From Sapria himalayana (taxonomy: Eukaryota; Streptophyta; Magnoliopsida; Malpighiales; Rafflesiaceae): 64,000 nt of DNA. The notes below the pieces were generated by a model, which saw only the letters and a list, made by a program, of their open reading frames with translations, did no database searches and had not been told where the DNA came from. How positions within the stretch are numbered: position 1 is the stretch's first letter; each line of letters starts with the position of its first letter. Of the stretch, positions 154 through 53,598 are shown one piece after another. The stretch is taken from positions 2,825,039-2,889,038 of the forward strand of contig JAREIK010002450.1 of the NCBI GenBank assembly GCA_029783825.1, given 5' to 3'. The position numbers were made by a program, and so were the translations under genes.

Positions 154-447
154 TCAAGGCCGAACTCTCTTGTTGCTACAAGATGGGCATTTGTACTGCT
201 TAATATGCTCCGCCCTGGCAGGAGTAACCTTTACGCATTTTCCATGGAACCATTTTTCACAAATATCACAGCAAATCCAAAACTCATCTGCAGCATACTT
301 CTCGCCACATGCTCCACATAGTGTCTCTCCGCATTTTTCATCATCATCATCTTCTTTTTCATTATCAAATTCATCATTTAGCTCGTCATATTCACCCTTT
401 GATTGTAGTTGCGGAGCTTTCCAATGCTTACCCTGAGATTCCTTCTG
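154..447 (-). CDS. Alfin-like gene exon 5 with PHD finger and stop
   Basis: Encodes (Q)[11 protein letters not shown], an acidic run ([10 protein letters not shown]), then the PHD finger: [25 protein letters not shown] and [16 protein letters not shown], with the Cys4-His-Cys3 zinc ligands all present and the aromatic residues expected of an H3K4me reader (F-W before the second CxxC, W after it). Stop codon at 156-154. The acceptor is a tandem AAG-CAG, so the exon may start at 447 or 444, giving proteins differing by one glutamine. Confidence 0.95.
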
Positions 448-3400
448 CTTTGGAGTTTCACCCAAAGAAAGACAAAAAATCAGTAGGAACTCGTTTGGTA
501 CACACTACTCATTCTTTACTCAATTATACTTTATGATTTTTTTTATTTAATGAACATACTTCCTACATAGGATGTTTGCTTTGGCATGCATTTTGACATC
601 TGCAAAAGTTAAAATTGTGCATGCTCATAAAAAGAAAGAATTGCAATTTTGACTAGTGAAAAGAAAATGTTAGTTCCAGCCCATGAAATTCCACTTGCAG
701 GCAAGCGACCCTCCTAATTGATAGTCACAATCCAAACTCACAGTGAAAACCACCTTCCCAAAAAATGCATCTTTTCCAAAATGAACCATTCCACAAGAAT
801 GAATAAATGATCTTTCTGCGATTTAACCACATGCCCATCATTTTTTGCTAGTTCCAAAATTAAAAAGATATGAACATTTTCTAATGAATGCAAACACACA
901 CATGCACACACACACACACTTATATATTAAAATTGAAATATGTTGTGATTTTTTTCATAACAAATGCTTAGATTATCACTTCCTAAATTGGAAAAAAAAA
1001 CAGCACAAATTAACGTGTTTTCCAATTTGGAAAAATTTGGTTGACATCTTGCATGTAGGAAATAAAATATTCAAACAAATAACTTTCAATCAAACTCAAA
1101 TAAAATGCTAATCACAAATAATTCTCCATCACATAAATAAAACAGTTCAAAATAACACATTTCATCCTTCTCCAACCTTCTAGCATTAAATTTTATTTTT
1201 TTTTCACCCTCCTCCCAATTCTCCCTTACCAACCATAGGACAGATGCAAATGATAACCTTCTATACTAGTCTATCATTTCAGTAGTGATCGCAACCAAAC
1301 ACATTTAACTATTGAGTTCTTATGAGATCCGATACATTAGTAATGATTTAAACGTATCTATCATAATTAGAATTATTATAAAACCTTAAAAAATTTTGGA
1401 TAATTAATTAGGACTTAGATCATACATTTAAATTTTTTACGAGAGCCTAATCACAAATCAAACACACTCCCTTGTATTTTAATCTAGTGACTCATAACAA
1501 ATTTCTTAATACTAAGTCTTCTTTCTAACTTCATATATCCATAATTTGTACATAATTTATCTTCTCACTTTATATATTCAACTTGTACATCCTTATCGCA
1601 ATGCACTCTACAATATAGTAGTACCAAATATCAATATAATTGTTTTGGCCATAATACATTAGATTTATTGTTAAGACAATTACTGACTTGCTGTTAACAC
1701 TAACCTTGATTAGCTCTTTTTATATAAAATTTATCTCTTTTGATAGATTTTTCTATCAAAGTACATGACAAACACGAGATTATAGGAATACATTCTACTT
1801 CACAAGTAAATAATGTGACTAATGATTATTTTTTTAACATCCAAGTAAAAATAGCATCTCCCATGAAAAAGTTATCATATATCATTTTTCTTGATAGATT
1901 TGATTTATTTATCCATTACTTCTCTCAACTTTCTCTTTTGCAACTTCTTAATTGCTCACTAGTTATAATTAACAAATATACAAAATAATTATAAGAACAT
2001 TTTGTCATTCAATTCTTCATAGAGATCTCGAAATGTTTTGTACTTTGTACAACTCTCTCTTTGACTCCTACTTAAAGATGAGAAAGGTGACTATCTATAT
2101 GAATAATTGAAGTTAAAGACAATTAAATTTATTACTTTATTAGTGTCAATTCATCCTTAAATAGAATAGAAATTTTTGAATTATTCATACGAGATCAAAA
2201 TTTCATATTTTTTTCTTTATCAAATATCATATCTTGGCTAATTACTTGTAACTTTTTGAATTTGTATCATACCTAATAAAGATGAACCCCACTTTTATCA
2301 TGAATTTTTATTTTTTTCATCTAGTACATAAAAATAGGTAGAAAAAATTCTCAGGTTAAAAGAAACTAGACCTTCTTCAACTTCATGTTTTTTGTGGTAT
2401 GTTTCCACATATTTATTGTTATAGATCGATTAGACAAGTAGATTGTATATGCCATTATTTTGGGCTTTCGGCTTAAGACTATTTGGATAGTTTCTTTCTT
2501 TTGGGCATTCCCCAAGCTATATTGAGGATAATCAAATTCTTTATTTCTAATACACTATTTTACCAGAAGATTTTAGAATTATCATTGATCAACAAATTTT
2601 ATTTACTAAACATAATTCTTAAAATTCATTTAAAATAAATTAAGAGAATGTATTAATTAGGTGGTTAATTTGAAAATAAATAAGAATAAGATACTAAGAA
2701 TTGATATTATATCAGTCAGTACACAAAAAAAATTATTATGATTGAGAAATTAAAGTGATGAATACTACCTTAATGCTGTTGGTACTACAAAAAATTCACT
2801 CTTTAGATAGTACCTAAAGTACATTAAGGTAAAATATATAGTAAATTAAGACAGTATCCATCACTTTAGTTCTTTAATCATGATAATTTTTTTTTTTAAG
2901 TGTGCTGACTAAAATAATATTAATTCTTAGTTATTATTAGAGTCATCATTATTGCAAGTCATCATTATTGCAAGTCCAACATCATCAACAACCACAATAT
3001 TGAAATACTCAAAACAAAGATATCAATCATAATGCATCTCTATAGCGAGTTCTTAGATATTTTATAACATTATTTTACAAGTTAATCATGAACATTCTAT
3101 TCTTTGATATTGGTGCATTATCAATTAAGTTATTATTATCATTTTTATAGAAAGATCATGAATTTTTATGAAAATATCTATAAAATAAATAAGAATATTA
3201 TCTATTTCAATCAGTTATATGGTAAAATCATCTTTGAATGAAACATTTATACTTGCTAATTTTTCTAGCTCCACAAATATATCTCTTCTTTCATAAATGA
3301 TTATTTGTATCACTATCAACATATTAGGAATTTGCTTGAACACCACTAGTTTTATTTTACTTGAGCAGAAAAGTTTTTTAACGTTTCTCACATTGTTAGT

Positions 3401-6400: not shown

Positions 6401-9400
6401 CTTCACACTCACAAAAGAAAAGGATGAGCTAAAGGTCTATCATGAGTCAAGACATTAATGAATTTGCCCATTAGGTGATTCATCATAGAGAAATACACCA
6501 AAGAAATTGAGTTGTCCTAAGTTTCCTATTTCATGAAATGGCAATTGACACCTACATACTCCATCAGCTTGTAGAGAGAAATCAAACTAAAAATAATGTC
6601 TCACAGCATAATGACTATATTAAAGAATAATCAGACATAAACCTGAAATATTAATCTCCTCCGATACATGTCTAATACAAAAAAACTCACAAGCAACGAT
6701 TATAACTATATATAAAAATTATTGTTGCCTATAATTTTTAAAGATCAAAATTATCTTGAAAAATACAAAAAAAAAAATTACAAATCTTATGTCTATAACA
6801 ATAAAAGCTCAACTCAATTCAAAAAAAAAAAAAAAAAAGCTTGTTGAGAATAAGTATGATTGTTAAAAAAATTATGGTATTTATGATTGTTAAAAAAAAT
6901 TATTTTAAGTTTTATGAGTGCATGGAGAATTACAACTATGTGAACCTACATAAAAGAATTATTATGGTATTTATGATTTTTATATTATTTTATTATCATC
7001 TACAGAGGATACCAATCATTTTGGCTATTATTGTTTGTTACGAATTATTGAGAAAAATAATATACACCAATAATATAGAATTAAAAAAAAATTCATACAA
7101 AGTTACAAACACATTCTTATAAAACAAACAAAATTATTAAGGTAGCACACAAGTTGGATACTCTCATCAAAAATATAAAATAAATAATAAATAAATAAAA
7201 TATAATACCACCCATCAAGTTGGTACATATAAGTCCATAATATTGGGTTTGCTAAAAAAATATACAAACTAGTATCTCTTCAAGAATTTCACGAAGATGT
7301 TGGTTGCTTTGTTCTCTGAATATATATTATTATAATGATCTCATCTTAGATCTTTTGACAGGAAAAAAAAAAGTTTATATATATATGTTTCTTCCACTCA
7401 TAAAAAATTAATCTAAGACTATATTTCAATATCTAACTAATATAATAAAAAATAATCAAAAAAGAAAATATTAATTCAATTTCTTTTAATAGACGACACA
7501 TCTAAAGTATCTCACAAGTAAGTATTGCTAGTGCTCTAAACACTACATTTACACTTGATTTCAAAACAACTATGTCTTACTTTCCCAGTAGCCAAGATTA
7601 TCTTCGAGAAAAATATAAAACTCAATTGTATACTTCCTTTTATCATATGTTGATGTCTAACTAGAGATATCAAATGAGCCGTAGCGGGCCGGCACAGCAC
7701 GACTCAAAAAGGGCTCGAGTTTGCTGAATTCGAGCAGACTTATGCCGTACCTTGGGAATTTCAGGCCAGGATTTACCATTTCAGCTCATTCGGAATCATA
7801 AGTCATAAGTCACAGCTCACAAATACAAAATTATAATACAAGTACAAAAATAACAAAAAATAACAAAAAAATAGAATTATAATCATAAGTCACAGCTCAC
7901 AAAAATAACATAACATAAATATTATAAATTTTAATAATTTCATTTTCTTAACATAATACAAGTACAAAAAATAACAAAGTAAGCTTAAAAGATAAAAATC
8001 AATACATCAAAAATCAATTCCGTAAACATCTGAATTAATACAAAAATAAAATAATAATACAAGTTCAAAAGACAAAAATTAATAGACAATACATTAATGA
8101 TAAATCACATAAATATTTGATGATATCATTAGCAATAAGCTTAATCTCATATATCATCAAAGTCTCATGAATCATTATCTATCACTAACTCTTCCGCTCT
8201 TGCTGCAGCATGATCCTAGATACTCATATTTGAATCATCTCAATCATTCATGCATGCTAATACCACAATAATATCTAACTACAATCTCGATTTCCTATCT
8301 GAAATTATATGATAATAGTCTATTTCTAATGATCCTAATAAATATATTAATAGTTACTCAATTATTTGATACATTTATCGAATATGATACTATCTATTTT
8401 ATTTTGAATATTATAATCATAAAAGATTATTATTATATACTCATAAATGATTAAGTCATCATGAGGATAGAGAATATCTAAAAATCCTAATATTTTTTAT
8501 TTAATTTTCATTTAAAATCTACATGGTAGATAATTAGGCATGCATAAGATGCATCGTCGCATCTAATTTAGATATTGGACATCAGAGATACCAGGCCATT
8601 ATATTCCTTAAATTCATCAATAATTATTATTTTTAATTTAAAGTATTTTAGCATATCATTTCTAGATATAAACCTTAAAATCCTACAATATGAAGGCTAA
8701 AAATAAATCTGCATGATATTACCTACCATTGTATCTTCTAAAAATCTAATTAGAAAACTCATTATAATGATCAATTTGATCATATCTTCCCTCCTTAACT
8801 TATTGTGATATATGAAAAGAATTTGTCTAAGATCTAATGCACCACTGAATTAGGTTTGCCTTAGATCTAATGTATAATATTTTTTGGTGCATTATTCAAC
8901 ATGCCTCTTAAAATGCTCAGTCTCACATAGAGATGTCAAACAGGGCAGGCAGCCCATACCCAACCCAAAACCCAGCACAGTTCATGCATCCTTGGCTCGG
9001 CCCGACACATTACTATAGCGTGCTCGGCCTGTGTCAGGCGAACCCTCGGCACAATTCATGTTGTGTCATGCCGAGGGTCTTTGGCCCGCGTGTCGTGCCA
9101 GGCATGACCGAGGTGCCTAGCACGTGGGCACGACACGCACAACAATGCGTCAAATAATTCACTACGACCAACACAACGATGCCCAACAGAGGATGACACG
9201 ACAAAATCCGATGGGTGATGGCTCGACCTGCCTGACAGGCATCGACGATGCAACCCTAATTTTATCTTAATCTGGAACTGCCCGACCAAACCTGAACTAG
9301 CCCGAAGCCAGGCTAATTTTGGGCCATGGGCCATACCGAGGCAACCCTCCAGTGAACTATGATGTGCCAGGCACGAAATGCAAGCATGGTTGTGCCTGAA

Positions 9401-12400: not shown

Positions 12401-13366
12401 TAGGCCCGACATGGCATGACTCATGCAGAGGTTGCACCTGGCATGGGCCCGAGCACGGCACTGTAGCATGCCGTGCCAGGCCATGCACAACTGAACTGTG
12501 CTGAGCTTCAGGATGGACTGGGCAGACCATGCATGTTTGACACCTATAATTAGAATGAATAAATTTCTGCTCATGCCAGACAAGCATATAGTATAAGAAG
12601 CTTTTATTAGTTTTCCTAATTGACATACCTTACACTCTAGGGTCAAAATATTCTTAAAATTTATATAATATTTTAAACTTTGACAATGCTAAGTGACTAA
12701 AGTGAAAATACACAAATAAAAAGTTCAACATACTTAAATATCTAATAAGAGATGCTATTATATAAAAAAAAAAAAAAAATTCCTCAAAATTCCATAATCT
12801 TGCAAATAAATATCAATTAAAATAAAATCAAAAATAAAAAAGAGATTTATGTTTTTGCACATCATACACAAAATATTTGTGATTTGGTATACTAAATTCT
12901 AAAATATTTAAAATTTGATGCACTAATATTTATCAACCTAATTTTTCCCTCTGAAATTTAGAAAAAAAATAAAATTTAATTTAATTAATTTAGAAACTAC
13001 TTTTGCAAAGTGAGAAATCACATTTCCAAATCCATAAATCATAATTCATCGAAAAGTAGATTCATAATCTTCATTAATGTTGCATAAGTGGCAAGGTAAG
13101 ATAAAAATTCATGCCCTACACATTGCAAAAACAGCAGTCAGCACCATACCACTCAGTTACAAAGTTAACGTCAATTTAAAAATAACTCAAAATAATTATA
13201 TATAGATACGAATATAAATGAAAACAAATATATAAGTATACATAAATATATATAGATATATAAATATATATGTAGATATATAAACTTGTATATAAATCAA
13301 CAAACATATATATGTATATACACACCTATATAAACATATATGTGTATATACATACATAAAAACATG

Positions 13367-13406
<40 letters not shown>

Positions 13407-19400: not shown

Positions 19401-22400
19401 TCTCTTTAGATAATAGAATATCAAAAACAAAACATGACTTAAAAACTTACACATTAATTTGCCCATTAATTTTTCCAATTAAAGAGATAATAGAATATCT
19501 CTTTACATATGTGTAATATAATAGAAAATATATTACACATATGTAATATATCATTAATAAGATATATCAAAATATATCTAGAGCAATAGCCAATAAATAT
19601 AATCAGATATCTAAATCCTTCCATGGTTGTATTTCTAATAAGTCCCCAAATATTTGAGTGTATTAGGTTGAATAGATCACTACTCAAATTAGACTGATGC
19701 GTAGGATAAAAGGTAATGATAAATTTTCTTAGTTAATATGCATCATACTTTATGATCAATACCCATGAGATTAGGATAAAGTTTTCTCAAGTTTACTAAT
19801 GATGGGTGCTCAATCTGAAAATACACAAGTAATGAATAAATAACTCATATATCTAGAAAATCTTATTGTTAAAAAGAAAATATACAATCTAATCTGTTCA
19901 ATCATGAAAAAACAACTCATGCATTATCTATTGATGCTATAAAAAAAATATCAATGAAAATAAAGACAACTTATAAATATGACACAAAGAAGTCAATTAA
20001 TAAGACAACTTACAAAATATAAATTAATAAGATGACCATGAATAAAATATATATATATATGACACAGAAATAATAAAGATTCAAATTGAATAATATCATA
20101 TCCAATATATTTCAAGCATTTTCAATTAGCGAAAATAATATTCTTAAAGCACAAAAAAAATATAAAAAATAAAATATAATTACTAATAATATGAATATTT
20201 ACTATTGTATTGATTATTCAAGATTCTGAATTGAGAATACAAATCAAACAACCAGTAATATATTAAAGAAAAAAATAATATATTGCTATCTTTGAGATAA
20301 ATTTTAAGGGGAATTATGTTTTGGAATACTCTCCTAGAAATATTTAAAAAAAAGAAACTGATCATTTAATATGTGAAAAAAAAAAGATATCAAACTATAA
20401 ATAAATTAAAAATTAGGACACTCGAATTCATAAGTCATAAACCACCCGCGCCCCCCTCCCCTGCCCCTCGCCCTCATCCTCGCCCTTGCCTGTCTCCCCC
20501 TTCCCTCTCCACGAGCTCCATCATGGAGCTCACTGGAGCTCCATCGAGCTCAACGATGGAGCCCATGGAGAGGAAAGAGGGGCGAGGGGCGAGGGGTGAG
20601 GGGCAAGGGCGAGGAAAAGAGTGAAGAGCGAGGGGGAAGGGCGAGGAAGAGAGGGAAGGGTAGGGATTAGGGGTGAGGGTAGTTTAGGAATTATGAAATC
20701 AAGTATCCTGATTTTTTATTTATTTATAATTTGGTGATTTTTCAAATATTAAAAGATCGGTTACATATTTTAAAATATTTCTGGGAGAGTATCCCAAAAC
20801 ATAATTTCTCCTAAATTTTATTTATTTTTTTCTAGTAAATATCAGGGTGAATAGAATCTGTGAGAACCCTAATAGTTAGTCTATATCTTTCACTACTATG
20901 TAACACTCTCGATCTCCTCTCCAAAAATTAATATCTAACAATTATGCCTGATGTGGCTTATTCTTCTATAATAACTACATTGAATTGAGACATTCATTTA
21001 TTTATCTTTGTTATGAAAATAATGTATCACAAAAATGTGATTCCTCAAAAAAGTAACTACACCCAAAACACATTTTTTACAAATCTCAAAATCTGAGTTA
21101 GGGTTCTATGCAAAAACCACCAACTAGAATCTTCTACAGTCGTGCAATATCATGAATGGTCATGCACCACCATCCACTTCCATTCTCCATTGTTTGCCAT
21201 TGTTTGCCAACATTTTCCATAGTTCCCTGCCAGCTAGGGTTTGCTAAAAATAATCATGCACGATGCACATGTTGGACGCCATGTGCAGACACTACTTGCC
21301 CCCTCTTGCATCTACTGTTGCAACAATGCACGCCTACTATCCAAAATATGTGTGCACCTGCTGCCCAAAATGCATGTCGTTCACTGTGTGCATGCCACTG
21401 CCTTCATTGCGTGTGCCTGCATTGTGCACATGCCTACATAGCCCACGAGTATGCTCTGATAGCATGTTGAAATTAAAAACAAATAAAATAAAATAAATGA
21501 ATCCTCATGAAATAACATACCCAAAAGTCTCTTATATAAAGGATAAAATAATTAGAGCAACCCACAAATTAGGTACTCCCATCAAAACATTTAAAAAATA
21601 TAAATATTAAGAAAAGAAAATCTCAACTAAAAATGAAAAATTAAGCTTAAGATACAACATGATTCATTTACATGAATTGGGGCAGCCAACAAATTGAGTA
21701 TTCATGCACCCAAACAATGAAAAAGCAAATAAAATAATAAAAATAAATTAGAATTCAATATCACCCATTCAAGCTGAGGTGTACATGACACAAATCTTCA
21801 ACTTGCAAGAGATGAATGTAACTTGTGATCCCCTAAAGGTATCAAGTTGGCCTGAAAGCATGGGCACAACCCAAGGCATGACTCGAATTAGTCATGCTTA
21901 GCTTGACATAGCACAATCTAAAATCGTGCCTAGACTGAAATCATACAAACTCGAGGCACAGTTCGTGTCATTTTTGACCATGGGTAATTGTGTCTAGCTT
22001 GCTAGGCATGATCCAAAGGCACATGACCAGGGATAGCCTACAAGTCACGGGTCACATGTCACAATCTAATGGGTCCCAGGCCAAAATTAAAAAAAAAATA
22101 ATCATGCCCATTATGTTTTCAAATAATGGGCCCACACAAAAAGTAACATGTATGGCCTGTAGCTTTCGATGGCAACTAAAAAATAATTTTTTTTAAACAT
22201 TTGTAGCCATCAAATTTGTTTCCAATGGATACAGGTAAAAATCTAATGATTATCAGATTTCTACCTTTTTAAAATAAAAAAAATAAAAAAAAAATTAAAA
22301 AGTTAAAAATATATATATGTTTTTTATATACAAAATTTCCATAAATAAAGAATATAAATTTATTAACGTTTATTCTCACATCTCTTATTTTCTACCTCTC

Positions 22401-28400: not shown

Positions 28401-31400
28401 AAATCACAAAAAATTAAAAAAAAATTAATATTTTTGAATTTCCTTTTTCTCTATAAATAGAGAAAAAGAAATTTAGAAATTTATTCTTAATTTCTTCTTC
28501 TCTCTTTGACAACTCTCTCAGTCTCTCATTTTTGACTCTATATCTAGTTTCTCCCATATAATATAAATATTATATATATTATTTTTTTTATTTTGATTTA
28601 TGATTTATGCATGCACATACAGATATGCCAATGTTGTGGATGTTCCTGTGCAACACTACAAATTGACTAAAGGTTGTAATTAACAATAAAATGGCATGTG
28701 GTATGATACTAGTTTTTTGTAAATTATTTTTTGTGAGCTTTTTTCTTTAAATTTCATAATTAATTTTAAAAATATAAATGAGTTATAAAAAATATAACAT
28801 AATAAATTTAATGATAATGAATATCATATTGACGTAGATATAAATAACAATGATAACTATAACGAAAGGTTCAAGACCATAATAATATTTTCTCCAACGA
28901 TCTCAACCTAAACACATATCACCTAAAAAAACAAAAAATTAAATGAATATTAGTAGTATGAACAAACTTTAAAATAATAAAAATTAAAAATCATAGAGTT
29001 TACAATAAAAAATTAGCATAATTTATAAATTATAAAAAAATATATATGTGTAAGAATATGTATTGAATTGAGCACCTAAAAAGATATGTCAATCAATACA
29101 TAAAAAAATATGTTAAATTAGATTTGAGGTAATCCCAACTTAGTAGTGTGATCTTTCAAACTGAATCTAGTTCAACTTCATTGACTCACTTTAGATGCCA
29201 CAATAATTTTAAAAGAAAAGTTATGGCCAAATTACTTAAGATCATGAATCTCTAGATTAGATTTTCAAAAGATTCTACGATAATCATCATTATGTAGACC
29301 TACTTCTAACATGTTAGTCGTAGGATTCTAATGTCCACATGTAAAAATAACATAATAAAATATTATAAATTATAATTATAATTATAATTAATAATTAATA
29401 AATTTAAAAATTTTGGTTAAGTTGCAGCCATAACATCAAATATATAAATTAGTTGCAATGATACATCATTTGCATGTCTTACCGCCTACTACTTAGACTT
29501 GATAAAAATTTAATAAAAAAATTTTGAAATTTTTTAAGATTTTTTATATCGTGATGTTCATACCATATATGAGGATATGAAATACATTTTTTTAAAATAT
29601 AAAATTCAAAATATAATATTTAATATTATTTTCAATAATACTTCTAATATTGAAGTAGCAATTAAAATTTTGATTAAATACTATTAGAAATGAGTCATTT
29701 GGTGAAATATTTTATGTTAGATATATGTATCACATGATAATATAGACGAGAATAAAAATTATTTCTTCCGCATTATAAAAAAATAAAAACATTCATAAAA
29801 ATACATTAGAAAGCCTAACAGGCAATAAAAGTTTAGCAACCTATATTCATTTGCGGGCTAAAAAAAATTCCAAAATGATATGAGACATCATTGGAATTAT
29901 ACCTATCTTATATTTGGAATCTTGTATTGGTAACTATCACATGATATTCAACTAAGTTAATAATAAAAATGACAAATTTATTATCAACGATTAAAACTAT
30001 AGTATAATAATTTTATATATGAAATTCCTAAAGATTTTCTATGATACGAAAATATAGTTTCATTCGTATGCACTTTCACCACTTGTATTGTACTTAGATT
30101 CATATGCAATATTAGTAATATATTTAACAAGTATAGAGATCACCATATATTTAATATCATGACTATTGAGATAGAAATCAAATACTTAAAATATTGATCT
30201 TCTAATCTAACTATGTATTGTTTGCAACTTGTATGAGGACACTAGCAATATCTTCAAACACATTCATGATGATGAAGATCTAAATCTCTATCCACAGACA
30301 CCAATTAATCATTGATGATTCTTGATTCATATAACACATGATCTTCGATTACATTAATAATAAAAATAAAGAGTTTATTATTGACGATTCAAACTATGGT
30401 ATAATAATTTTATATATGAAATTCTTAAATTTTTTCTATGATACGATGAATTTATGTTCATTTGTATACCTTCTCACTACTTGCACTATACTTAGATTCA
30501 TATGTAATATTAGTAGTATGTTTAAAAATTACAAAGATCATCGTGTATTTAATATAATGGCTATTGAGATAAAATTCAAATACTTAAAATACTGATCTTT
30601 TAATCTAACTATATATTGTTTGCTACTTATATGAAAGAACTAACAATATCTTCAGATACATTCATGATGATAATGATCTAAATCTCTATCCACCGACACC
30701 ATTAAATCATTGATGATTCTTGATTAATGTAATACATGATATTCGACAACGTTTATAATAAAAATGATGAGTTTATTATCGATGATTCAAACTATGATAC
30801 AATAATTTCATATATAAAATTCCTAAAAATTTTTTATAATACGACAAATATAGATTCATTTGTATACCCTCTCACCACTTGTATTGTATTTAGATTAATA
30901 TGCAATATTAGTAATATATTTATAAAGTATAGAGATCACCATGTATATAATATAATAACTATTGAGATACAAATCAAATACTTAAAATACGGATCTTCTA
31001 ATCTAACTATGTATTATTTGTTGCTTATATGAGAACACTAACAATATCTTCAGATACATTCATGATGATGAAGATCTAAATCTTTATCCACAAACACCAA
31101 TTAATCATTGATGATTCCTAATTCATGTAATATTGATACTATACTACAATAATAGTACTCATTTATTTTTGTTTGTTTTTTTTTATTTTGATTTAGACAA
31201 TATTATCTATTGATGTATTAAATATTGGATTGGATTATACTTTGTAGTTTTTATAATTTTAAGTTTTGATATATATTTTTTTAATTTGATTCACGTATTA
31301 TTTAAATTGTGCATTCAACATATACTTGAGCCGAATGAAATATCAAAATATAATCGGAATTCTAAAATCACGATCATGTCATAGTTATCATGATTTAGAA

Positions 31401-40400: not shown

Positions 40401-43400
40401 AAGTAAATAGCGTGCCAAAGGGACAAGCCAGGCTATCAATTTTTAGATTCATACTAGCATGGCACAACCCATACTAAACTCAGCGCTACCGAGCATGACT
40501 CGGTGACCTAGATAGGCCTAAAAAATAAGTCATGTCAGCATGACACAACCCATTTAACACCTCTAAAAATGAAAGTTTATCCCCAATATACAAAGTATAA
40601 GATATGACAAGAAAAAATAGAAAATGATTTTCGATTGATTGAGAAATTAACAATTAACACTGCTTCTCACCAAAAATATTTAGGCACACTCTTATGAAAT
40701 ATTAGTGTCCTAATCATTACTATTATATGTCAATTCTTCCTCTTAGTTATCATATTATGTGTATAAGTACTAGCACATGATATTTGATGAACCAGCATGT
40801 CTCCTTAAAAAAACAAAAAAACAAACTAATAAGAAACATATTTTAATATGTTACCACTTGTTAATATCATAATGTCACATATAAACTAAATTTTTATCAT
40901 TTCATAAAATTTTACAAAAATAAAAAAAAGTAAAGATTTTTTCTTAAACACTGATAAACATATATATCAAATATAATCATAAATAAAAGTAACAAAATAT
41001 CACAAATCATCATATATAATAATGTGATCATCTTATAGAATCCCAAAATATATGAGTGGATCACATAAAATGAGTTTCTCCTTGTACCTTTTTGATGTGT
41101 CAGATATGAAACTCTAGTATATTTTCTTAACTGATAAATCTCACAATCAATAGATGACACTCTCTCAAATACTCGATTCTAAAATCTACAATGAAAGATA
41201 TCTCAGTCAAGAATGAATCACTAATGGATTAATAATACACATCCATTCATATGAGCTCTAGTGAATTAAGAAAGAACATGTAAAATGCAACTTGCTCAAA
41301 TTTTAAAAATTCATCTATTTGATCAAACAATCCTTCATAAAAAAAAATAAAAAAGAAGAAAATAATATTATAACCTTATTATTTTATAAAACAACTAACA
41401 AAAAAATTAATGACAAAATTATAGTATATATAAAATATAAGTTCAAAAAAAATGATCAACATTAACATAATTATGTCTCCTAGCCCATACCTGAGGATAA
41501 TTGGTCACGACAATATCAATCTTTAGGCTCTACAAAAAAAATAAAAATAATATAGTTATGAGTAGCAAATATTAGCTCTTGAATCCATTACCCAACAACT
41601 TATAATAATATGATGAGTAAAAAGTATAATAGATGTAGACATATCTAACCTAGTGGCACCCAAAAAACAAAGTCTAAAGCTATGTTGCACGGATACACCT
41701 AGGAACTGCCGTGTCGCCGTATCCGACCCGTGTCGCCATGTCCACGTGTCCGATGCGCCACATGGCATATCGGATACGCGTTAGAGACATATCTGACGCG
41801 TTGTTCGGAAACAGTCGTCGTTAATAACAGACGCGTCGTTTACCTACAGACGCATCGTTTATCAACTGACACGTTTTTACGATTCTAACGCGTCGAAAAT
41901 ACACTATATATTAACTATTACTCCTACATCTCCAACAAATTGAGGAGCACACTGCCGACAGTGATTTGCCGACAAGCCGATTACGAGAAATAGTTGTCAA
42001 TTATCATTGCGTCAAACGGTGAAGGGAGGAGCACACCGCCGAGGCACCAACAATACCTAAGGTAACCTAAATCTATAAAGGAAAATGGGGGGTTTTGGAA
42101 TATGTATCGGGAGGGAGGAGAGTTCGAAAATCAAAACTGTAAAGGGATGGTGGTAGGGGGGGGGGGTGTTAGAGGGTTTAAATTTTTTTTACATTATTTT
42201 AAAATACAGAATTTTAAATTATTTTAAAATACCTAATATTTATAATTAATAATTTTTATTTTTATTTTTATTTTTTTTATCATGACGTATCCTAGTCGTA
42301 TCTGTATCCTAGTTTTTTAGAATTTGTCGTGTCCCCGTATCATGTCGTGTCGTATCTCCGTGTCCGTATCCGTGTCCATACAACATAGGTCTAAAGTACT
42401 CCTGGGAAAGCATCAAAATAACATTTCCAATGGATGCGATCATAAAATCAACATGAGTAAGTCTAGTAATATGTTGTATAATCTTTGAACCTTGGAAAAT
42501 CCATCCTGACTTAGGATACAATATCCAGAACTTCTCTCAAGTATGTTCTGAATGCCACATAAACATGTCATAATTGTATTCCTACTTCTCAATGTACCTC
42601 GGCTAGGTCTCTCATGTCACATAAATATTATGATGAAGATATCATAATATTATAATTAATCTTACTAACACTACTTAAATCTAGATGCAACTATAGTCAC
42701 TCTCTACTAATTCAATGTTTTACAAGTATATGAAATGCACACAGATGAATTACTTATTTATCAAAGAAAAAATTCAAATTATGATCATTGCTTCAACTTA
42801 TTTTCCTATAACACATCTATCAGCCAACATGCTTATCAAGATTTTAAAGAAGTCTCGGCTCCGTTCTTTTTTCTTCAAATTTAATGATATGGATATTTAC
42901 ACATAATTTGAGGTAGATATTATAATTATTGTTTTGTGTTGTATAATTGACTTAGGGATAGGAGCACCTAACATGTGAGATGCCCCTATAAAATTTTCTT
43001 TTATATATATATATATATATAAAAGTTAGTTTTCATTTATAGTTTAGTGAATTTGTTTGACATTTTATATATTATCGGTTTATTATTCACAAACATCAAT
43101 CTAAAGAAATTATTTTTAGGAAGAATCCTCAGAGAACAATTTATGCTTAAAGAAAATTACATTAGCTTTGATAATAATTATCTATCTTTGTAGAATAATA
43201 TCTTATATTCTTTTGAGGCATTACAAAAACAACGTAATATATATTTGATGGTGTATATTATCATATTTTCTTTTTCAAGAGTAAGAGCCTAAACAACGCA
43301 TGTATACCCAAAAATAAAAAAGATTTTCAATTGATTAAATGGTTTGCAATTATGATTATTTCACCCCAAAGATATTTACATACACTTCAATATAAGAGAA

Positions 43401-46400: not shown

Positions 46401-49400
46401 GAGACTTATAAAAAGAAGATGCACTAAAATATCAAGTGTAAACTACAACTACCATAATATTTATTCTCGAGTTAAAAAAATTACATCAAAATATATTCTC
46501 ATTTCTCTTGTAATATCTCACAATTAAAAAATATACTAACTAAGCATAAAAAATACATTTCTTCACAGTGACTTTAGGAGGAGATATATATAGAGTATCT
46601 AATTAAGTTTCATATAGTACAATCAAGTACAATTTACAAATTATAAAAAAATATCGTATGGCCTAAAACAATTAGCAAGAATTTGATTTATAATATTTTC
46701 ATAAATAATCATCTTAATAATATGATGATTTTTTTAATTATCTACATTAAAAATATTCTAATTATAAAATATAATGAATTAGAAATTAATCAACTCAATG
46801 AATATATCCTAACATAATTTCAAACAAAAAATATTCGAAGACTGATATTTTTTTTAACAAAAAAATAACTTATTTTATAAGAAATAATATTTTGTCACAA
46901 AAAAGATATATAATTGATACTTTTATAAGAGTTAATCTTTTGAATTGTACTCTTGTATATACTTCTCAATAATCCCTCCAATTACTAATTTTACTTTTGA
47001 TGTAATCCCCTAATTAACTATACTAATAAAATATCATTAAAAAAAATTATGATCAGACCAAATATAACATACACAGTCACTTTTATAAGATCTCTTTCAT
47101 GAATACTTGCATATACTTCTCAACATCTCGACAATCCCTCTAGTTAATTATTTTCTAAATTATTCTCGACAAATTCACCTTTGACACGTCTTGAGATCTT
47201 TAATGAATCATGAATACTTATAATTAGCCAGATATTTAGATTTAAGTAAAACACCAACATGGACTAAATATATATATATATATTCAAATTTTGTATTTCT
47301 CTATAAAACAATTTTATCTCCTACAAAAATAAAAAATATGTAATAATTTTAAGATTTTAGTACAAATTCAAACCAATAACAATGATCAATTACAAAAATA
47401 CTTTGATAGTCAAGCAGCAAAGCATATAATATTCAATCTAATTATTCGCTAGCAATAAAGTATATAAAGATGAATTTATTCTTCCTTTACAAGAAAATTT
47501 AAAATAAAAGTATTACTACAACATATATTTAAATAACAAGGTAGCTAGCAAATATCTTCATGAGAACCTTGAATAGACTTCAACTTATCTTTCTTTTTTC
47601 TAAATTGGGTATTATTATTTTTTTGTATGTGCCAACTTGATGATGATATTTTGATTTTATTTATTTAGCTTTTTACTTTTTTATACTTTTGATAGGAACA
47701 TCGAATTTGTAGGCTATATTAATCATATTTGATCATTATATAAAAGGTAGATTTTACATTATTATTCATTAAGAATTATTTTTATTTTTATTTTATAATT
47801 ACTAAGTTTAACATATTTTTTCTTCGAAATGGATGTCCAATACAACACAAGTAATTATTAATAAAAATTTTAAAAAAATAATAACTATCAAAACTAATGA
47901 TTCTATAGAATCCCAAAATGCATGTGTACTAGATATAATGAATCTCATTTAACATTTTCTTATCAAACCAAATAAAAAACTAACATATTTTAATAGTCAA
48001 CAAGTCTCATAAACAATTAAGAATATTTCTTCTTGTTTGACACCATATATTTGAACTTGACCAAAAAAAATAACAAAGTTGAGAATATATCACATAGAAA
48101 TTAATGATACCTAAGTATCTAGGTCTTTTAAGAGTGAAATAAAATGAGTACAATTAGTCATACTCAAACCTCATGAAAACATATATGAAGATTTTTGATC
48201 TTATATATAAATTTCAAAAATCAAAATAACCATGATACAATTCAATTGCTTTGAAATATAATTTATTGATAATGAATTATGAAAAAAGTTGAGATGCGTC
48301 AAATGAGCCGGGGCCGGCCCAATTTTTTCAGGCCTAACTGGGCTGTGTGCCGTATCTGGCATTGCACACTTCCTTAGAAGGCATGCCCGGCACGAGCCCA
48401 TGGCCTGAAATCCACCCCGGTTTGGGCTGGTTCGGTCCAATTCAGGTCGGCTAGTTCAGCCCAGTTCAGGTCGGCCAGTTCGGGTAAGGTGGGTCAATTT
48501 TTAAATTCAAAGCCACGCCGCCGTTGCCCGTCGGGCGTCGGTGCATCATCCCCCTGTCAGGCATCACTCAGTGCATGGGCAGGCATGTCATGCCCACGTG
48601 TCAGGCACCCATGGCGTGCCTGGAACGACATATGGGCTGAAAACCTTTGGCCCGGCATGGCACAACTCGTGATGAGGGTGCGCCCGGCGTGGGCCCAGAC
48701 ATGGCAGTGTAGCGTACTATGCCAGGCCATGCACTGGTGAACAGTGCCAAGCTTCAGGTTGGGCCCGGGCTGCCCGGACCATTTGATACCTATGAGCTCA
48801 TAGGTGTACAAAACACACACCAACATAAGTGGACCAGCATTAGTCTTACCATATCCACTAGCGACTAGCCCAAGTAACAATTTCATTGATTATGGTAGTG
48901 CCATAGGCTCTAATCTCAAAAAAAGTAGTCAGAATTGGTTGGTTACCTACAACGTGGATATTTACTCTTGAAACACTTCCCTATCCCTAATGACTAACAC
49001 ATTAGATTTCCTAGCTCAACATAGAGCATAAAGTTTTCTATTTCAATTAATAGTGAAGCACCTGATAAAAATTATTTTCAAACAATGTACTTTCTCTAAT
49101 TTCAAGGGCTTAACAGCCAGGTGACGCTTGGGTCAAATTTCTTAATTTAAAATTCTAATTAAAGTTTTCATTCTGAAACCCAGAAAAGAAACTGTTTGAG
49201 ATTTTAACGACGTTGAAAAGTTTCCGTGAAAATGAAATGTAGTGAGTGGAGTTTACAATTAAAAGATGATAAGTGACATCACAAGTTATGTTACGTAGAG
49301 AAAGCATTACGCAAGCATGCAATAGAATAAATTCAAAACAGGCATGCCTCACCGGGATCACATTGCCGAAAAAACTCTAGTACATCTGCAAAACACACAA

Positions 49401-49613
49401 GACATTCAGCAAGTGTTTTCTTAAATACATTTGAACTTCCACAAAGTTCAGAATTAAAAGCATTTAAAACAGAGATAACCAAAAGAAAATAAGCTGATGG
49501 CACAACCTACCGGTAGTAAGAGCTCTAATGAGGCCGGTTCGACGGCCCTTAAAATCAACCAGCACATCACCCACTGTGCGTGGAGAGAAGTGCATCGCAG
49601 CATCTCCCTCCAT
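154..49613 (-). CDS. Alfin1-like PHD-finger protein, complete five-exon gene with a 43.7 kb intron
   Basis: Joined exons are 49511-49613, 49353-49385, 5406-5634, 5109-5259 and 154-447 (minus strand). All junctions are GT-AG, phases match, and there is no internal stop; the product is 269 aa (268 with the alternative exon-5 acceptor), close to the roughly 250 aa usual for the family. Residues 1-~140 are the Alfin N-terminal domain ([60 protein letters not shown]). A lysine/serine and then acidic linker follows. The C-terminus is a Cys4-His-Cys3 PHD finger ending in [11 protein letters not shown]. Members of this plant family are known to read H3K4me2/3 in the nucleus and to associate with Polycomb-type partners. 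The function here is by homology. Odd points are the giant intron 2 and an exon 1 that departs from the usual family pattern at several positions. Confidence 0.9.
1195..1395 (-). mobile_element. Second copy of the SINE-like repeat
   Basis: Aligns throughout with 3751-3910: shared blocks include CACCCTC, CCAATTCT, TTACCAACCA and GATTTAAACRTATCT. A T-rich run at about 1185-1202 is the complement of the A-rich tail. No clean target duplication was seen. It lies close to the copia-0 3' LTR remnant. Confidence 0.65.
3751..3910 (-). mobile_element. SINE-like insert of 160 bp with 18-bp target duplication
   Basis: The insert interrupts the copia gag. GTAATGATCCTTGGAGTT (3733-3750) is repeated as GTAATAATCCTTGGAGTT (3911-3928), 17 of 18 identical. 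On the minus strand the insert ends in GGGTGAAAATCATTA, a decayed A-rich tail. The related copies at about 1195-1390 and 58805-58975 end in GGGTGAAAAAAAATAAAA-type tails. Long duplications plus an A-rich 3' end suggest a retroposon. I could not find a convincing pol III A or B box, so a tRNA-derived origin is unproven. Confidence 0.7.
4768..4783 (-). other. Candidate primer-binding site of copia-0
   Basis: The minus strand reads GTATCAGATGGAGC, close to the TGGTATCAGAGC initiator-Met tRNA binding site seen in many plant copia elements. It lies just inside the presumed 5' LTR (about 4790-4965). Confidence 0.5.
5109..5259 (-). CDS. Alfin-like gene exon 4
   Basis: The acceptor GGTGCAG ends at 5260; the donor GTAAGAAA starts at 5108. 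The exon completes the split arginine and encodes [19 protein letters not shown] followed by a variable linker rich in Ser, Asn, Arg and Lys ([11 protein letters not shown]). It ends on a codon boundary. The linker joins the Alfin domain to the PHD finger and may carry a basic nuclear-localisation patch (inference). Confidence 0.94.
5260..5405 (-). other. Intron 3 of the Alfin-like gene (146 bp)
   Basis: The donor GTATT starts at 5405 and the acceptor GGTGCAG ends at 5260. No insertion is visible. Confidence 0.9.
5406..5634 (-). CDS. Alfin-like gene exon 3
   Basis: The acceptor is a CCAACTTTCAG context just above 5634; the donor GTATT starts at 5405. It encodes [48 protein letters not shown] and [20 protein letters not shown], the best conserved part of the Alfin domain. 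It begins and ends inside codons, and both split codons resolve correctly with exons 2 and 4 (E and R). Confidence 0.96.
5635..7100. other. Unrecognised AT-rich intronic sequence
   Basis: No gene was recognised. There are A-runs at about 6765-6780 and 6821-6838, and a direct repeat of GATTGTTAAAAAAAATTAT-type sequence at about 6857-6905 with ATTATGGTATTTATGATT recurring near 6961. The last few hundred bases may belong to an LTR of the copia remnant that follows. Confidence 0.4.
7662..10200 (-). mobile_element. Long GC-ended hAT-like family member, copy D (truncated)
   Basis: Starts with TAGAGATATCAAATGAGCC and a GC-rich arm, then AT-rich interior. Blocks at 8160-8330, 8440-8600 and 8750-8925 align in the same orientation with copy C (32130-32290, 33330-33600 and 38150-38290). 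This shows it is a member of the long family in reverse orientation to copies A and B. It is interrupted at 8928-9439 by a short family member and resumes with the block that matches 38300-38530. The right GC-rich arm was not found, so the end near 10200 is taken from where copia RT resumes. Confidence 0.65.
8928..9439. mobile_element. Short GC-rich hAT-like element, TSD GTCTCACA
   Basis: Begins TAGAGATGTCAAACAGGGC and ends GGTCCGTTTGACACA. The 8 bases GTCTCACA occur on both sides (8920-8927 and 9440-9447). The right terminus lacks the expected CTCTA ending (TTTGACACA instead of TTTGACACCTCTA). The interior is rich in CGGCAC/GTGCCG motifs. It sits inside long copy D, so it is younger than D. 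Confidence 0.85.
12268..12548. mobile_element. Short GC-rich hAT-like element, TSD ATTAGAAT
   Basis: Termini are TAGAGATGTCAAACAAG and CATGTTTGACACCTATA. The duplication ATTAGAAT is at 12260-12267 and 12549-12556. At 281 bp it is the shortest copy. It splits the integrase region of copia-1: the reading frame fragments on its two sides are adjacent parts of the same domain. Confidence 0.9.
12880..14560. repeat. Tandem duplication (about 0.8-0.9 kb units) rich in microsatellites
   Basis: 12890-13795 and 13803-14560 share the same order: a TTTATCAACCT block, a block containing CCAAATCC and CATAAATCATAATTC-like sequence, GTGGCAAGGTAAGAT, a block with ATGCCCTACACATTG, CCACTCAGTTACAAAGTTAA, then long (TA)n, (TG)n and (CA)n tracts. 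Pure (TA)n is at 13372-13402; (TG)n runs are at 13437-13447, 13494-13511, 13727-13746 and 14506-14524. Every open frame through here is low-complexity and not credible as protein. Confidence 0.85.
14540..15020. repeat. Short tandem phrases and a duplicated 120-bp block
   Basis: A roughly 25-35 bp phrase built on CAACTGGCACACA…GTGCACAA repeats at 14545-14645 with a degenerate copy at 14785-14840. Then ATGTCAACCACTATTGAC starts two related blocks at about 14646-14765 and 14903-15020 (each continuing with a CAAGAARTARYRATATG block and ending AAAAGACATATCA). No coding function is apparent. Confidence 0.7.
15020..15623. other. AT-rich sequence, no gene recognised
   Basis: Nothing beyond low-complexity AT-rich sequence was recognised. 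Confidence 0.4.
15624..15936. mobile_element. Short hAT-like element of the GC-ended family, TSD ATTTTCAC
   Basis: Termini are TAGAAATGTCAAATGGG and TAGTTGACACCTCTA. ATTTTCAC is duplicated at 15616-15623 and 15937-15944. The interior retains the family vocabulary (GTCATGCC, GGCCTGGC) but is largely CATG rather than CGTG, suggesting an older, CpG-depleted copy. Confidence 0.88.
15945..17690. other. AT-rich sequence, origin not recognised
   Basis: There are no persuasive coding matches on either strand. A 71-codon frame at 16524-16739 has no recognisable family. The position between copia remnants suggests it is retroelement-derived, but I cannot show this. Confidence 0.35.
17692..17900 (-). 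repeat. 3' LTR of copia-2
   Basis: Aligns with 21466-21662 over its length. It shares the start TGTTGAAATT, the block CATAAAATAACATA / CATGAAATAACATA and the terminal ACAACA. The polyprotein end lies immediately beside it at higher coordinates, as expected for a minus-strand element. Confidence 0.75.
18120..19275 (+). mobile_element. Long GC-ended hAT-like family member, copy E (5' truncated)
   Basis: Sequence 18180-18700 aligns with 24965-25460 of copy A (shared blocks around CATACTATCTAA, AAATATCATAGAAA and ATTTGGCAT). A GC-rich arm at about 18880-19270 ends in CATTTGACATC, a decayed form of the family right terminus. No left terminus or target duplication was found. It lies inside copia-2 next to the RNase H fragment. 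Confidence 0.6.
20307..20811. mobile_element. Mutator-like element with long inverted repeats and a GC-rich core, TSD TAAATTTTA
   Basis: The 9-bp TAAATTTTA is duplicated at 20298-20306 and 20812-20820. The terminal arms of about 140 bp are inverted repeats: left AGGGGAATTATGTTTTGG…ATACTCTCC, and the right arm read in reverse GGAGAAATTATGTTTTGG…ATACTCTCC. The centre (about 20445-20685) is a C-rich strand that turns G-rich around palindromic GAGCTCCAT/ATGGAGCTC words. No transposase is present, so it is non-autonomous. Long TIRs plus a 9-bp duplication are typical of MULEs. Confidence 0.85.
21466..21662 (-). repeat. 5' LTR of copia-2
   Basis: This is the partner of the 17692-17900 repeat. The primer-binding-like TGCTATCAGAGCA abuts its inner end. 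Inside it (about 21100-21450) lies a comparatively GC-rich untranslated leader with many GCATG/GTGCA words, similar in character to 43840-44120 of copia-5. Confidence 0.75.
21663..21833 (-). mobile_element. 3' end and LTR fragment of copia-3
   Basis: The sequence ACCCATTCAAGCTGAGG and the stretch before it resemble an LTR start and copia tail. Read on the minus strand it continues the RNase H end that breaks off at 25845, the gap being exactly filled by element A with its target duplication. Confidence 0.55.
21834..25836 (+). mobile_element. Long GC-ended hAT-like element, copy A (4.0 kb), TSD TGATCCCC
   Basis: The left end TAAAGGTATCAAGTTGGCC is preceded by TGATCCCC (21826-21833). The right end CTATTTGACACCTCTA is followed by TGATCCCC (25837-25844). 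GC-rich arms flank an AT-rich interior with no convincing transposase. A short family member (24436-24944) is nested in it, so the original length was about 3.49 kb. The flanking copia-3 reading ([17 protein letters not shown]… then tail) is continuous when the element is removed. The interior aligns with copy B (for example 22834-23250 with 28836-29240). Confidence 0.85.
24436..24944. mobile_element. Short GC-rich hAT-like element, TSD TCAAATAG
   Basis: Termini are TAGAGGTGTCAAAAGGG and CCAGTTTGACACCTCTA. TCAAATAG is duplicated exactly at 24428-24435 and 24945-24952. It is nested inside the interior of long copy A. The interior includes repeated CAATCAGCCA…GTGAC phrases and GCACGG-type words. 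Confidence 0.92.
25845..27511 (-). mobile_element. Copia-3 RT/RNase H remnant
   Basis: The minus strand from about 26090 to 25845 reads like the copia polyprotein end ([19 protein letters not shown]). About 26890-26560 has RT-like blocks in shifting frames (KILYDIK for [20 protein letters not shown] for YVDDIVI). Stops are common. It is the coding part of the element into which copy A and the B/C nest were inserted. Confidence 0.65.
27335..27425. repeat. 28-bp tandem repeat, three copies
   Basis: AAGTCGCAATCTCAAGCT begins at 27340, 27368 and 27396 with AT-rich spacers of equal length, so the period is 28. The units are identical, implying a recent duplication inside an otherwise decayed copia remnant. 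Confidence 0.95.
27512..27847 (-). mobile_element. Stacked left ends of the GC-ended hAT-like family
   Basis: Two left termini occur in succession: TAGAGATGTCTACTGGG at 27512 (preceded by CTCAACAT) and TAGAGATGTCAAATAGG at 27691, each followed by GC-rich arm sequence. A third begins at 27848 (copy B). The outermost one probably pairs with the right end at 39723, which is followed by CTCAACAC (7 of 8 the same). The partner of the middle one is unresolved. Confidence 0.6.
27848..31694 (+). mobile_element. Long GC-ended hAT-like element, copy B
   Basis: Begins TAGAGATATCAACTAAG and ends CTGCTTGACATCTTTA, with GC-rich arms and an AT-rich interior that aligns with copy A. It differs from A by carrying three tandem copies of a roughly 397-bp unit. 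Flanks ATTCCAAG (left) and ATTTTGAG (right) match at only 5 of 8 positions, so the pairing of these two ends is probable rather than shown. Short open frames such as 30338-30595 and 30736-31032 are repeats of each other and have no family match. Confidence 0.65.
29938..31125 (+). repeat. Three tandem units of about 397 bp inside copy B
   Basis: Units start near 29938 (ACATGATATTCAACTAAGTT), 30337 (ACATGATCTTCGATTACATT) and 30733 (ACATGATATTCGACAACGTT). Each contains TTTATTATCRAYGATT, a ATACGA…TTCATT…CACCACTTGTATT segment and ends ACCAATTAATCATTGATGATT. Copy A has one unit (about 23920-24360). Confidence 0.9.
33096..34200. repeat. Direct duplication of about 560 bp in copy C
   Basis: Both halves contain ACATAAAGTAARTATATTTTTAAY, GATGYCTCATAT, TAGAYTGTTAAA, the GTTGGGTATC-type phrase, AATATCATATT, and the block ending AACTCTACTATATTTT. 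They have diverged by scattered substitutions and small indels. The second half ends at the hAT insertion. Confidence 0.8.
34214..38111 (+). mobile_element. hAT transposon, 3.9 kb, complete ends, TSD CATATAAT
   Basis: Exact 8-bp duplication CATATAAT at 34206-34213 and 38112-38119. The left end TAGGGATGAGAACTTTTTG and the right end read in reverse TAGCAGTGAGCATTCGGTTG are imperfect inverted repeats. Subterminal regions are rich in AACCRAA / TTYGGTT words, typical of plant hAT elements. It encodes a broken transposase. It is inserted in long copy C, so it is younger than C. Confidence 0.93.
35133..37080 (+). pseudogene. hAT transposase pseudogene (BED zinc finger type)
   Basis: Fragments in order match a plant RICESLEEPER-like hAT transposase. 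35133-35330: BED finger ([25 protein letters not shown]; the second Cys of the first zinc pair is replaced by Tyr). 35580-35735: catalytic-domain part ([32 protein letters not shown]). 36115-36240: [28 protein letters not shown]. 36955-37030: C-terminal dimerisation region ([19 protein letters not shown]). Stops and frameshifts separate these, so no functional protein is expected. Confidence 0.85.
39724..40092 (-). other. Copia-3 spacer between nested insertions
   Basis: Short host segment between the right end of the B/C nest (39723) and the next short element (40093). No domain is recognisable. By position it should lie between RT and integrase of copia-3. Confidence 0.4.
40093..40565. mobile_element. 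Short hAT-like element of the GC-ended family, decayed TSD
   Basis: Begins CAAAGGTGTCAACTATG and ends CCATTTAACACCTCTA. Flanks are AAGGTGAA (40085-40092) and AAAATGAA (40566-40573), 6 of 8 alike with two transitions. The interior is full of CATG/TGGCAC words, with few CG dinucleotides. It interrupts copia-3. Confidence 0.75.
40574..41170 (-). mobile_element. Copia-3 integrase remnant
   Basis: Minus strand 41160-41050 reads [15 protein letters not shown], the end of the GAG-pre-integrase zinc region, followed by integrase-like [10 protein letters not shown] residues. Around 40690-40620 a decayed KYFW-EAVL-like block (end of integrase) is visible. The same region aligns with 43320-43620, another copia fragment. 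Confidence 0.65.
41680..42388. mobile_element. hAT-like non-autonomous element, CTATGTTG ends, TSD GTCTAAAG
   Basis: Exact duplication GTCTAAAG at 41672-41679 and 42389-42396. The ends CTATGTTGCACGGATAC and GTATCCGTGTCCATACAACATAG are inverted repeats, the outermost 8 bases perfect. Subterminal arms are rich in CGTGTCC / CGTATCC words. Repeated ACAGACGCGTCGTTTA-type phrases lie at about 41790-41880 and a G-run at 42156-42166. There is no coding region. The 8-bp duplication fits hAT, but the family is different from the TAGAGGTGTCAA one. Confidence 0.88.
42397..42690. other. Unassigned sequence between transposons
   Basis: No domain was recognised on either strand. It probably continues the copia-3 remnant that flanks the 41680-42388 element on its other side. 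Confidence 0.35.
42690..42990 (+). mobile_element. Copia RNase H 3'-end fragment, plus strand
   Basis: The plus strand reads a decayed polyprotein end ([28 protein letters not shown], shown here only as [17 protein letters not shown] and KFNDMDIYT) followed by GATAGGAGCACCTAACATG, which resembles LTR starts at 43660 and 47690. A short (TA)n run follows at 43002-43020. Confidence 0.55.
43040..43630 (-). mobile_element. Copia integrase fragment, minus strand
   Basis: Minus strand 43385-43330 reads [17 protein letters not shown], the conserved end of copia integrase (KYLWGEAVLTATYLIN type). The segment aligns with 40620-40900 of copia-3 in the same orientation. It is bounded by plus-strand copia pieces on both sides, so the local arrangement is a patchwork. 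Confidence 0.6.
43650..47815 (+). mobile_element. Degenerate Ty1/copia retrotransposon (copia-5), plus strand
   Basis: LTR-like repeats at about 43650-43785 and 47690-47815 share GGAACATCRAATYTRT-like starts, a TTAATCATATTT block and an ATTATTATTTATT-type stretch. The interior carries a leader rich in GTGCA/GCATG words (43840-44120), integrase from about 44760 ([19 protein letters not shown] zinc region, then [17 protein letters not shown], and a [14 protein letters not shown] block near 45200) and an RNase H end near 47400-47560 ([18 protein letters not shown]). RT is too decayed to place. Stops throughout. Confidence 0.65.
47820..48285 (-). mobile_element. Copia integrase fragment, minus strand
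   Basis: TATAGAATCCCAAAATGCATG and the sequence after it resemble 41030-41060 of copia-3 (TATAGAATCCCAAAATATATG), an integrase-domain region. No more can be assigned. Confidence 0.45.
48289..48793. mobile_element. Short GC-rich hAT-like element, no TSD seen
   Basis: The left end TTGAGATGCGTCAAATGAGC and right end GACCATTTGATACCTATGA are decayed family termini. The GC-rich interior contains GGGGCCGGCC and GGCCCGGC words and a short direct repeat of TTCAGGTCGGC(C/T)AGTTC at about 48441-48482. It lies 560 bp from exon 2, in intron 2. Confidence 0.75.
48794..49352. other. Intron 2 sequence adjoining exon 2
   Basis: Moderately AT-rich and less decayed in appearance than the transposon remnants. 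No domain was recognised. It is likely the original intron sequence near the donor site. Confidence 0.4.
49353..49385 (-). CDS. Alfin-like gene exon 2 (33-nt micro-exon)
   Basis: The exon is preceded by TGTTTTGCAG and followed by GTGAGGC. It encodes D(split)[10 protein letters not shown] and leaves one G that pairs with the first two bases of exon 3 to make glutamate (E of PEKEN). The peptide matches the conserved TDVEEFYQQCDP block of the family. It is too short to appear as an open reading frame of any useful size. It sits 125 bp from exon 1 and 43.7 kb from exon 3. Confidence 0.9.
49386..49510 (-). other. Intron 1 of the Alfin-like gene (125 bp)
   Basis: The donor is GTAGGTTG at 49510 and the acceptor TTTTGCAG ends at 49386. 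It is short and contains no recognisable insertion. Confidence 0.85.
49511..49613 (-). CDS. Alfin-like gene exon 1 (start codon)
   Basis: The ATG at 49613-49611 opens 34 codons plus one base, followed by a GTAGGTTG donor. The peptide contains [20 protein letters not shown] and IRALTT, matching the Alfin N-terminus. From memory the family usually has EE-F-R where this copy has GD-L-V after PRTV, so this exon looks more diverged than exons 3 and 5. The last base G joins the AT of exon 2 to make the aspartate of ALTTD. No in-frame alternative start with family similarity lies upstream. Confidence 0.9.
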
Positions 49614-49823
49614 GATAATTTTCACTTAACGGCTTTCTCCCGCAAACTAACAGTTGTCGAACTTATGGCAGCGTTAAAAATGAATTTAATATATGCATTT
49701 TATTGCATATTATATTTACATTTGATTTAGATTTTTTCTTTTTTTTTTTGGTAAAATTATATTTTATTGCTTCTAAACGAAAATATTTATAAAAAGTACC
49801 AATTTTAAATAATTTTAACATTA
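49614..49823 (-). promoter_or_regulatory. Immediate upstream region of the Alfin-like gene
   Basis: About 75 bases next to the ATG (to about 49690) have the base composition of the exon and are probably 5' UTR. Beyond that the sequence becomes AT-rich with a T/A run, and at about 49822 the LTR of copia-4 begins. No clear TATA box can be defended. Confidence 0.4.
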
Positions 49824-50088
49824 TTATGAACAATATTATAGATGTATATAATCTCTCCATTAGTATCTTGACTATTGATATTCTTGTAACTCTTATTATT
49901 CATAGATTAATTTGTATTAATTTGTATAGATTAATATGTATTCATTGATACATTTAATATATATTCATATATTAAACCCTATAAATAGTAAGCCTTTGTA
50001 TAAATCAAAATACACTTGAAGAAATAGGAAATCTCTCTCATGTTTCTCATATATATCTTATTCTCTTGTATTTCTATTATATAATAAG
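49822..50088 (+). repeat. 5' LTR of copia-4
   Basis: Starts TATTATGAACAATATTATAG and matches 53599-53846 through CTATTGATATTCTTGTRACT, TTATTCATAGATTAAT and CTTTGTAT to ATAATAA. It is followed by GTTATCTGCACGAAGC, a possible primer-binding region. It ends about 210 bp from the Alfin-like start codon, on the opposite strand. Confidence 0.85.
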
Positions 50089-53480: not shown

Positions 53481-53598
53481 AAAGAAATAGTAAATTTTTT
53501 TTTATAATGTACTCTTTTTCCCTTTACCATGGTTTTGTCCCACTGGGTTTTCCTGGTAAGGTTTTTAATGAGACAGTATCTGGAAATCCAAGGGAGAG

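Follow-up and report, generated by a model that had tools for sequence, protein, structure and literature searches.

The window examined here (the whole 64-kb stretch of Sapria himalayana DNA, which contains no N) very probably holds one intact PHD-finger gene of the Alfin-like (AL) family, in which the conserved second intron has been enlarged to 43.7 kb, most likely through transposable elements that accumulated gradually and have since decayed. The gene occupies positions 49613 to 154 on the minus strand, and its five exons join in phase, without internal stop, to encode 268 amino acids. It spans 49.5 kb because one intron is filled with old repeats. Its parts are as follows.

49613-49511, minus strand: AL exon 1, 103 nt, from the ATG to a phase-1 donor
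49510-49386, minus strand: AL intron 1, 125 bp, GT-AG
49385-49353, minus strand: AL exon 2, 33 nt, identical in length in both paralogues
49352-5635, minus strand: AL intron 2, 43,718 bp, GT-AG, no N
5634-5406, minus strand: AL exon 3, 229 nt
5405-5260, minus strand: AL intron 3, 146 bp, GT-AG
5259-5109, minus strand: AL exon 4, 151 nt
5108-445, minus strand: AL intron 4, 4,664 bp, GT-AG (4,661 bp if exon 5 starts at 447)
444-154, minus strand: AL exon 5, 291 nt including the stop, PHD finger

The acceptor of exon 5 could also lie at 447 or at another AG close by, as several of these leave the frame open. The joined protein matches the Pfam Alfin family (PF12165, DUF3594) over profile positions 1-126 of 127 (2.5e-64, 215.2 bits against a cut-off of 21) and the PHD family (PF00628) over its full length, 1-47 of 47 (4.1e-09, 36.8 bits against a cut-off of 24). 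Taken by themselves, exons 1-2 match Alfin positions 1-33 (2.6e-08) and exons 3-5 match positions 34-126, which makes the two pieces exactly contiguous in the profile. A preliminary description had proposed that exons 1-2 at 49.4-49.6 kb and exons 3-5 at 0.15-5.6 kb make up one AL gene with a continuous family domain across the join, and this proposal stands: both the Alfin and the PHD domains are complete, the domain continues from Alfin position 33 to 34, every junction is GT-AG and in phase without a stop, and the key junction coordinates it gave are right to the base. On its letters, the gene appears intact. Solved structures of ALFIN-LIKE 7 (1.2e-70) and ALFIN-LIKE 2 match the N-terminal domain, and that of ALFIN-LIKE 3 matches the PHD finger (1.5e-30). 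A protein search returned 2,497 relatives; among the best 120, every protein has the Pfam Alfin domain, and those with names come from plants. Since the named relatives among these best 120 of 2,497 look like eudicots, as far as we recognise them, the gene appears to be an AL gene of the angiosperm type. The AL PHD finger belongs by family to the histone H3K4me3 readers. Transcription would run right to left, with the normal spliceosome expected to join 49353 to 5634 at the GT-AG sites, and the predicted product, 268 aa long with the Alfin domain at its N-terminal end and the PHD finger at its C-terminal end, may act as an H3K4me3 reader, as family knowledge suggests.

Both strands of the window were scanned for exons 1 and 2 with a profile built from 111 relatives, splice signals being required. 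Exon 1 scored 58.3 bits versus -48.7 for the next of 5,558 window sites, and exon 2 scored 29.0 bits versus -18.6 for the next of 257 sites, while the best scores in ten shuffled windows were -37.7 (exon 1) and -7.5 (exon 2); a chance origin of the two exons is excluded. The same scan of a 260-kb sample of this genome, made up of 26 stretches, each 10 kb long, from the surroundings of the AL genes, gave positive scores only at exons 1 and 2 of two paralogues. Within the window, the splice-aware profile scan revealed no additional candidate for exon 1 or exon 2 of an Alfin-like gene, and no other copy of exon 3 was found there either. In the assembly (2.06 Gb, 18,497 contigs, with N gaps), a search with the Alfin family gave matches at three places. 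A protein search of the entire assembly gave 12 matches, ten of them exons of the three AL genes and the remaining two PHD-type matches elsewhere (C801, 8.1e-4; C2187, 0.425), so there is no other partner for either half within the reach of this search. The search does not extend to exons that are very short or diverged (every exon 2, as well as exons 1 and 4 of the C10032 paralogue), and a stray exon 2 elsewhere would thus escape. The preliminary description had also considered that a closer, better-conserved exon 1-2 pair might serve exons 3-5; none turned up in the window or, within the reach of the search, in the assembly.

The three AL genes lie on contigs of 1.8-3.8 Mb. The C2378 paralogue is complete, its five exons being separated by introns of 220, 15,383, 505 and 89 bp. 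In the C10032 paralogue, introns of 119 and 13,166 bp separate exons 1-3, a 12,682-bp intron precedes exon 4, and the PHD exon lies less than 3.7 kb beyond exon 4. Exon 2 measures 33 nt in all three genes, and the positions and phases of the exon 1/2 and exon 2/3 boundaries are common to all. A comparison of exon boundaries had been suggested with AL genes of related species; run here on the C2378 and C10032 paralogues of the same assembly, it ends in agreement at both boundaries. These same genes qualify the earlier picture of a single grown intron: intron 2 of the window gene is indeed 43,718 bp long, but it is not singular, as its own intron 4 reaches 4.7 kb and the second introns of the paralogues 13-15 kb.

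Given that the two parts of the gene are 43.7 kb apart, and that the divergence of exon 1 is somewhat above expectation (see below), it could be argued that exons 1-2 derive from one AL gene and exons 3-5 from another that was truncated at its 5' end, the two sharing an orientation by chance. However, neither part has a stop, a frameshift or a damaged splice dinucleotide, the parts are exactly complementary in the Alfin profile (1-33 and 34-126), the paralogues are split at the same place and in the same phase by introns of 13-15 kb, no further copy was found in the assembly, and the window has neither a competing exon 1 or 2 nor a second exon 3. Completeness, phase, the paralogues and the whole-assembly search thus rule against two broken copies, which we consider extremely improbable. 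A wrong contig join between exons 2 and 3, which would make the true intron shorter, appears very improbable as well. The assembly is scaffolded, and two stretches of N (2,500 and 3,000) follow just past the right end of the window; against this, the window itself has no N (although contig joins made without N would not show as such), and a large intron 2 is also present at two other loci, with no N in the stretches fetched around it in either paralogue.

With one gene and a real intron as the preferred reading, the size of this intron can be compared across the family. In each of the three AL genes, intron 2 exceeds the other introns in length (43.7, 15.4 and 13.2 kb), intron 1 measuring only 119-220 bp, and in C10032 intron 2 leads intron 3 (12.7 kb) by little. 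The same one of four slots would be the largest in three genes in about 1 of 16 cases by chance. We consider it rather unlikely, though worth stating, that intron 2 is a tolerated or favoured site of growth, e.g., owing to regulatory content or to open chromatin that attracts insertions. With the same intron large in three genes, the reasons why certain introns grow could be tested by comparison on a small scale.

The paralogues also allow the exons to be compared at the nucleotide level. Exons 1-2 show pN 0.21 and pS 0.67 versus C2378, and pN 0.35 and pS 0.70 versus C10032; from exon 3 onward the values versus C2378 are 0.10 and 0.93, and for exon 3 versus C10032 they are 0.17 and 0.72. Such paralogue values include old divergence and say nothing of the present constraint on exons 1-2 of the window. 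In an exon-by-exon comparison with the 111 of the best 120 relatives that are 245-275 aa long, the divergence of the window protein from its relatives is about 1.8 to 4.4 times that among the relatives themselves, and is greatest in exon 1. This exon carries about 7.8 of the 23.7 protein changes, more than would be its portion, which is borderline in a rough, post hoc test (one-sided P 0.052), and the excess of changes in exons 1 and 2 together is not significant in a test of the same kind (P 0.19). In a midpoint-rooted tree with 45 protein rows, comprising the three AL genes and 42 of the best 120 relatives, the window gene falls among its relatives, apart from C2378 and C10032 (98/89), a grouping that is partly expected because these relatives are the window gene's own best matches. 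The tree placed it in the lamiids (with Ipomoea, Cuscuta, Olea, Sesamum, Striga and Paulownia; 93/89, unstarred), not in Malpighiales, and this placement is unsure. Its branch is 0.84 long versus a median of 0.11, which points to a fast-evolving lineage.

The repeat content of the intron was assessed by BLASTN of the window against the 260-kb sample from the same genome. Matches cover 39.9% of intron 2 (a lower bound). The share is 13.8% in intron 4 and 44.2% in the upstream flank, and no BLASTN match to the same sample was left when the window was shuffled. Intron 2 holds 79 of the 117 matches, spread over 13 of the 26 stretches. Identity does not exceed 70% in 66 of the 79 (median 66%), and the majority of these repeats accordingly look old. 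The intron would most likely have grown by a gradual pile-up of transposable elements, which then decayed. Simple-sequence arrays occur within it at 13.2-14.6 kb. At 29939-31132 there are three tandem copies, about 84% alike, of a 398-bp unit that also matches, more weakly, near 23.9-24.1 kb and, in inverted orientation, at 32.8-33.0 kb. Of 252 intron open reading frames of at least 45 aa, 177 passed a complexity filter, and seven chosen from these were run against Pfam. No transposon domain was recognised in these seven, and two have sub-cut-off matches to irrelevant families; the repeat origin thus rests on repetitiveness, not on domains. Two of the seven (19469-19732 and 40915-41178, minus strand) resemble copia polyproteins by eye, a likeness that was not borne out by Pfam. 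We also dismissed genes nested in the intron: the stop-to-stop frames of at least 100 aa look low-complexity or repeat-like by eye, and the seven chosen frames have no Pfam domain above cut-off. A scan for tRNAs (using the bacterial code) found none.

An intron of 43.7 kb offers much room for an alternative promoter and first exon that would also yield a shorter transcript from exons 3-5. The window has no further Alfin-like exon 1 or 2 to serve such a transcript, though, and a non-coding first exon would lead to a protein without the start of the Alfin domain. We regard an intronic promoter of this kind as improbable, and the full five-exon gene remains our reading of the locus.

Upstream of the gene lies its head-to-head neighbour, a retroelement on the opposite strand.

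49822-53845, plus strand: decayed Ty1/copia element with terminal repeats and RVT_2

Its terminal repeats are 76% identical over 266 alignment columns, and in Pfam its reverse transcriptase domain (RVT_2) scores above cut-off and an integrase-like piece below it. Pieces of this element recur in stretch L018, beyond the 3' end of the gene, at 82-88% identity (one at 74%). A tblastn comparison of the upstream copia pieces with intron 2 gave nothing at E 1e-3. The alignable terminal repeat starts 208 bp upstream of the AL ATG; with only this distance between the two, the promoter would be compressed, inside the element or beyond it. Farther upstream, a 5S rRNA-like match at 58800-58918 (plus strand; 45.7 bits, gathering score 38) sits in a unit of about 165 bp. 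It is the only Rfam match in the window and lies outside the exons and introns of the gene. The unit is repeated in inverted orientation at 1191-1363 (1191-1358, minus strand), inside intron 4, and also in L006 near 8965-9138. The terminal repeats of Cassandra TRIM elements contain 5S sequence, and we presume that these 5S-like repeats of about 165 bp may be Cassandra-like. The region 60324-60810 is GC-rich, with overlapping open frames in five frames and motifs such as GPARHG, and has the look of a GC-rich repeat; part of it recurs in L026 at 86.5% identity.

As a yardstick for large gaps elsewhere in the genome we used the MCM helicase genes, a single gene family unrelated to AL, with 28 matches on nine contigs; the gaps between their domain pieces are upper bounds for single introns. 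Gaps above 20 kb occur on three of the nine contigs, one of them probably a duplicate, and range from 23 to 37 kb. They measure about 25 and 23.5 kb on C13634, about 25 kb on C9872 (probably the duplicate contig, since its first piece scores the same as that of C13634) and about 37 kb on C1156, where the matches are weak and one has a stop. Gaps on C486 and C3088 are 2.4-4.5 kb, C88, C8194 and C3204 are compact, and C343 has one open block. This block, at 4281391-4282059 of C343 (G000:C343:4281391-4282059), holds the MCM domain in a single 818-aa open frame amid MCM genes that bear introns, and could be a retrocopy or foreign DNA.

The AL gene is a worked example of an ordinary gene hidden in a swollen plant genome, with 136 nt of its coding start placed 43.7 kb from the remainder. 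We predict that exons 1-2 would probably be missed by a gene finder that caps intron length. Such hidden exons matter for gene counts and for claims of gene loss in swollen genomes.

How far this gene departs from its family can be judged from published AL genes. Nearly all of them consist of five exons separated by four introns, cotton and poplar providing exceptions (PMC11243875), and tomato ALs have three to four introns (PMC10421131); intron number is conserved and, in cotton, intron lengths vary (PMC11243875, PMC10421131). The window gene shares the Alfin and PHD domains and the structure of five exons and four introns (PMC11243875), and differs in its intron 2 of 43.7 kb, the accessible portions of these two accounts giving no such size (PMC11243875, PMC10421131). 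A literature search combining alfin-like with long intron gave, in the records seen, SPL flowering genes in Catalpa and no AL report.

For the genome as a whole, long introns are a documented habit. Sapria himalayana has 27.47% GC, introns of at least 1 kb in 53.1% of its genes and introns above 100 kb in 23 genes, and of the 1,000 genes with the highest expression in the flower, 640 contain long introns, according to an assembly of 1.92 Gb in 18,718 scaffolds (FragScaff, scaffold N50 245.75 kb) (PMC10246380). The surroundings of the window gene are likewise AT-rich, repeat-rich and marked by long introns; the GC content of the 260-kb sample is 30.1% if its 5,500 N are counted, or about 30.7% if they are left out. 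Gymnosperms have introns above 20 kb that are tied to the accumulation of repeats, including Ty1/copia (PMC9364684), and the AL intron resembles these in exceeding 20 kb and in its link to repeats, while differing in that the gene is of angiosperm type. The giant AL intron is thus largely ordinary, an instance of the repeat-driven habit that earlier work has described in Sapria himalayana and in gymnosperms; what is mildly novel is that in each of the three AL genes no other intron is as large as intron 2.
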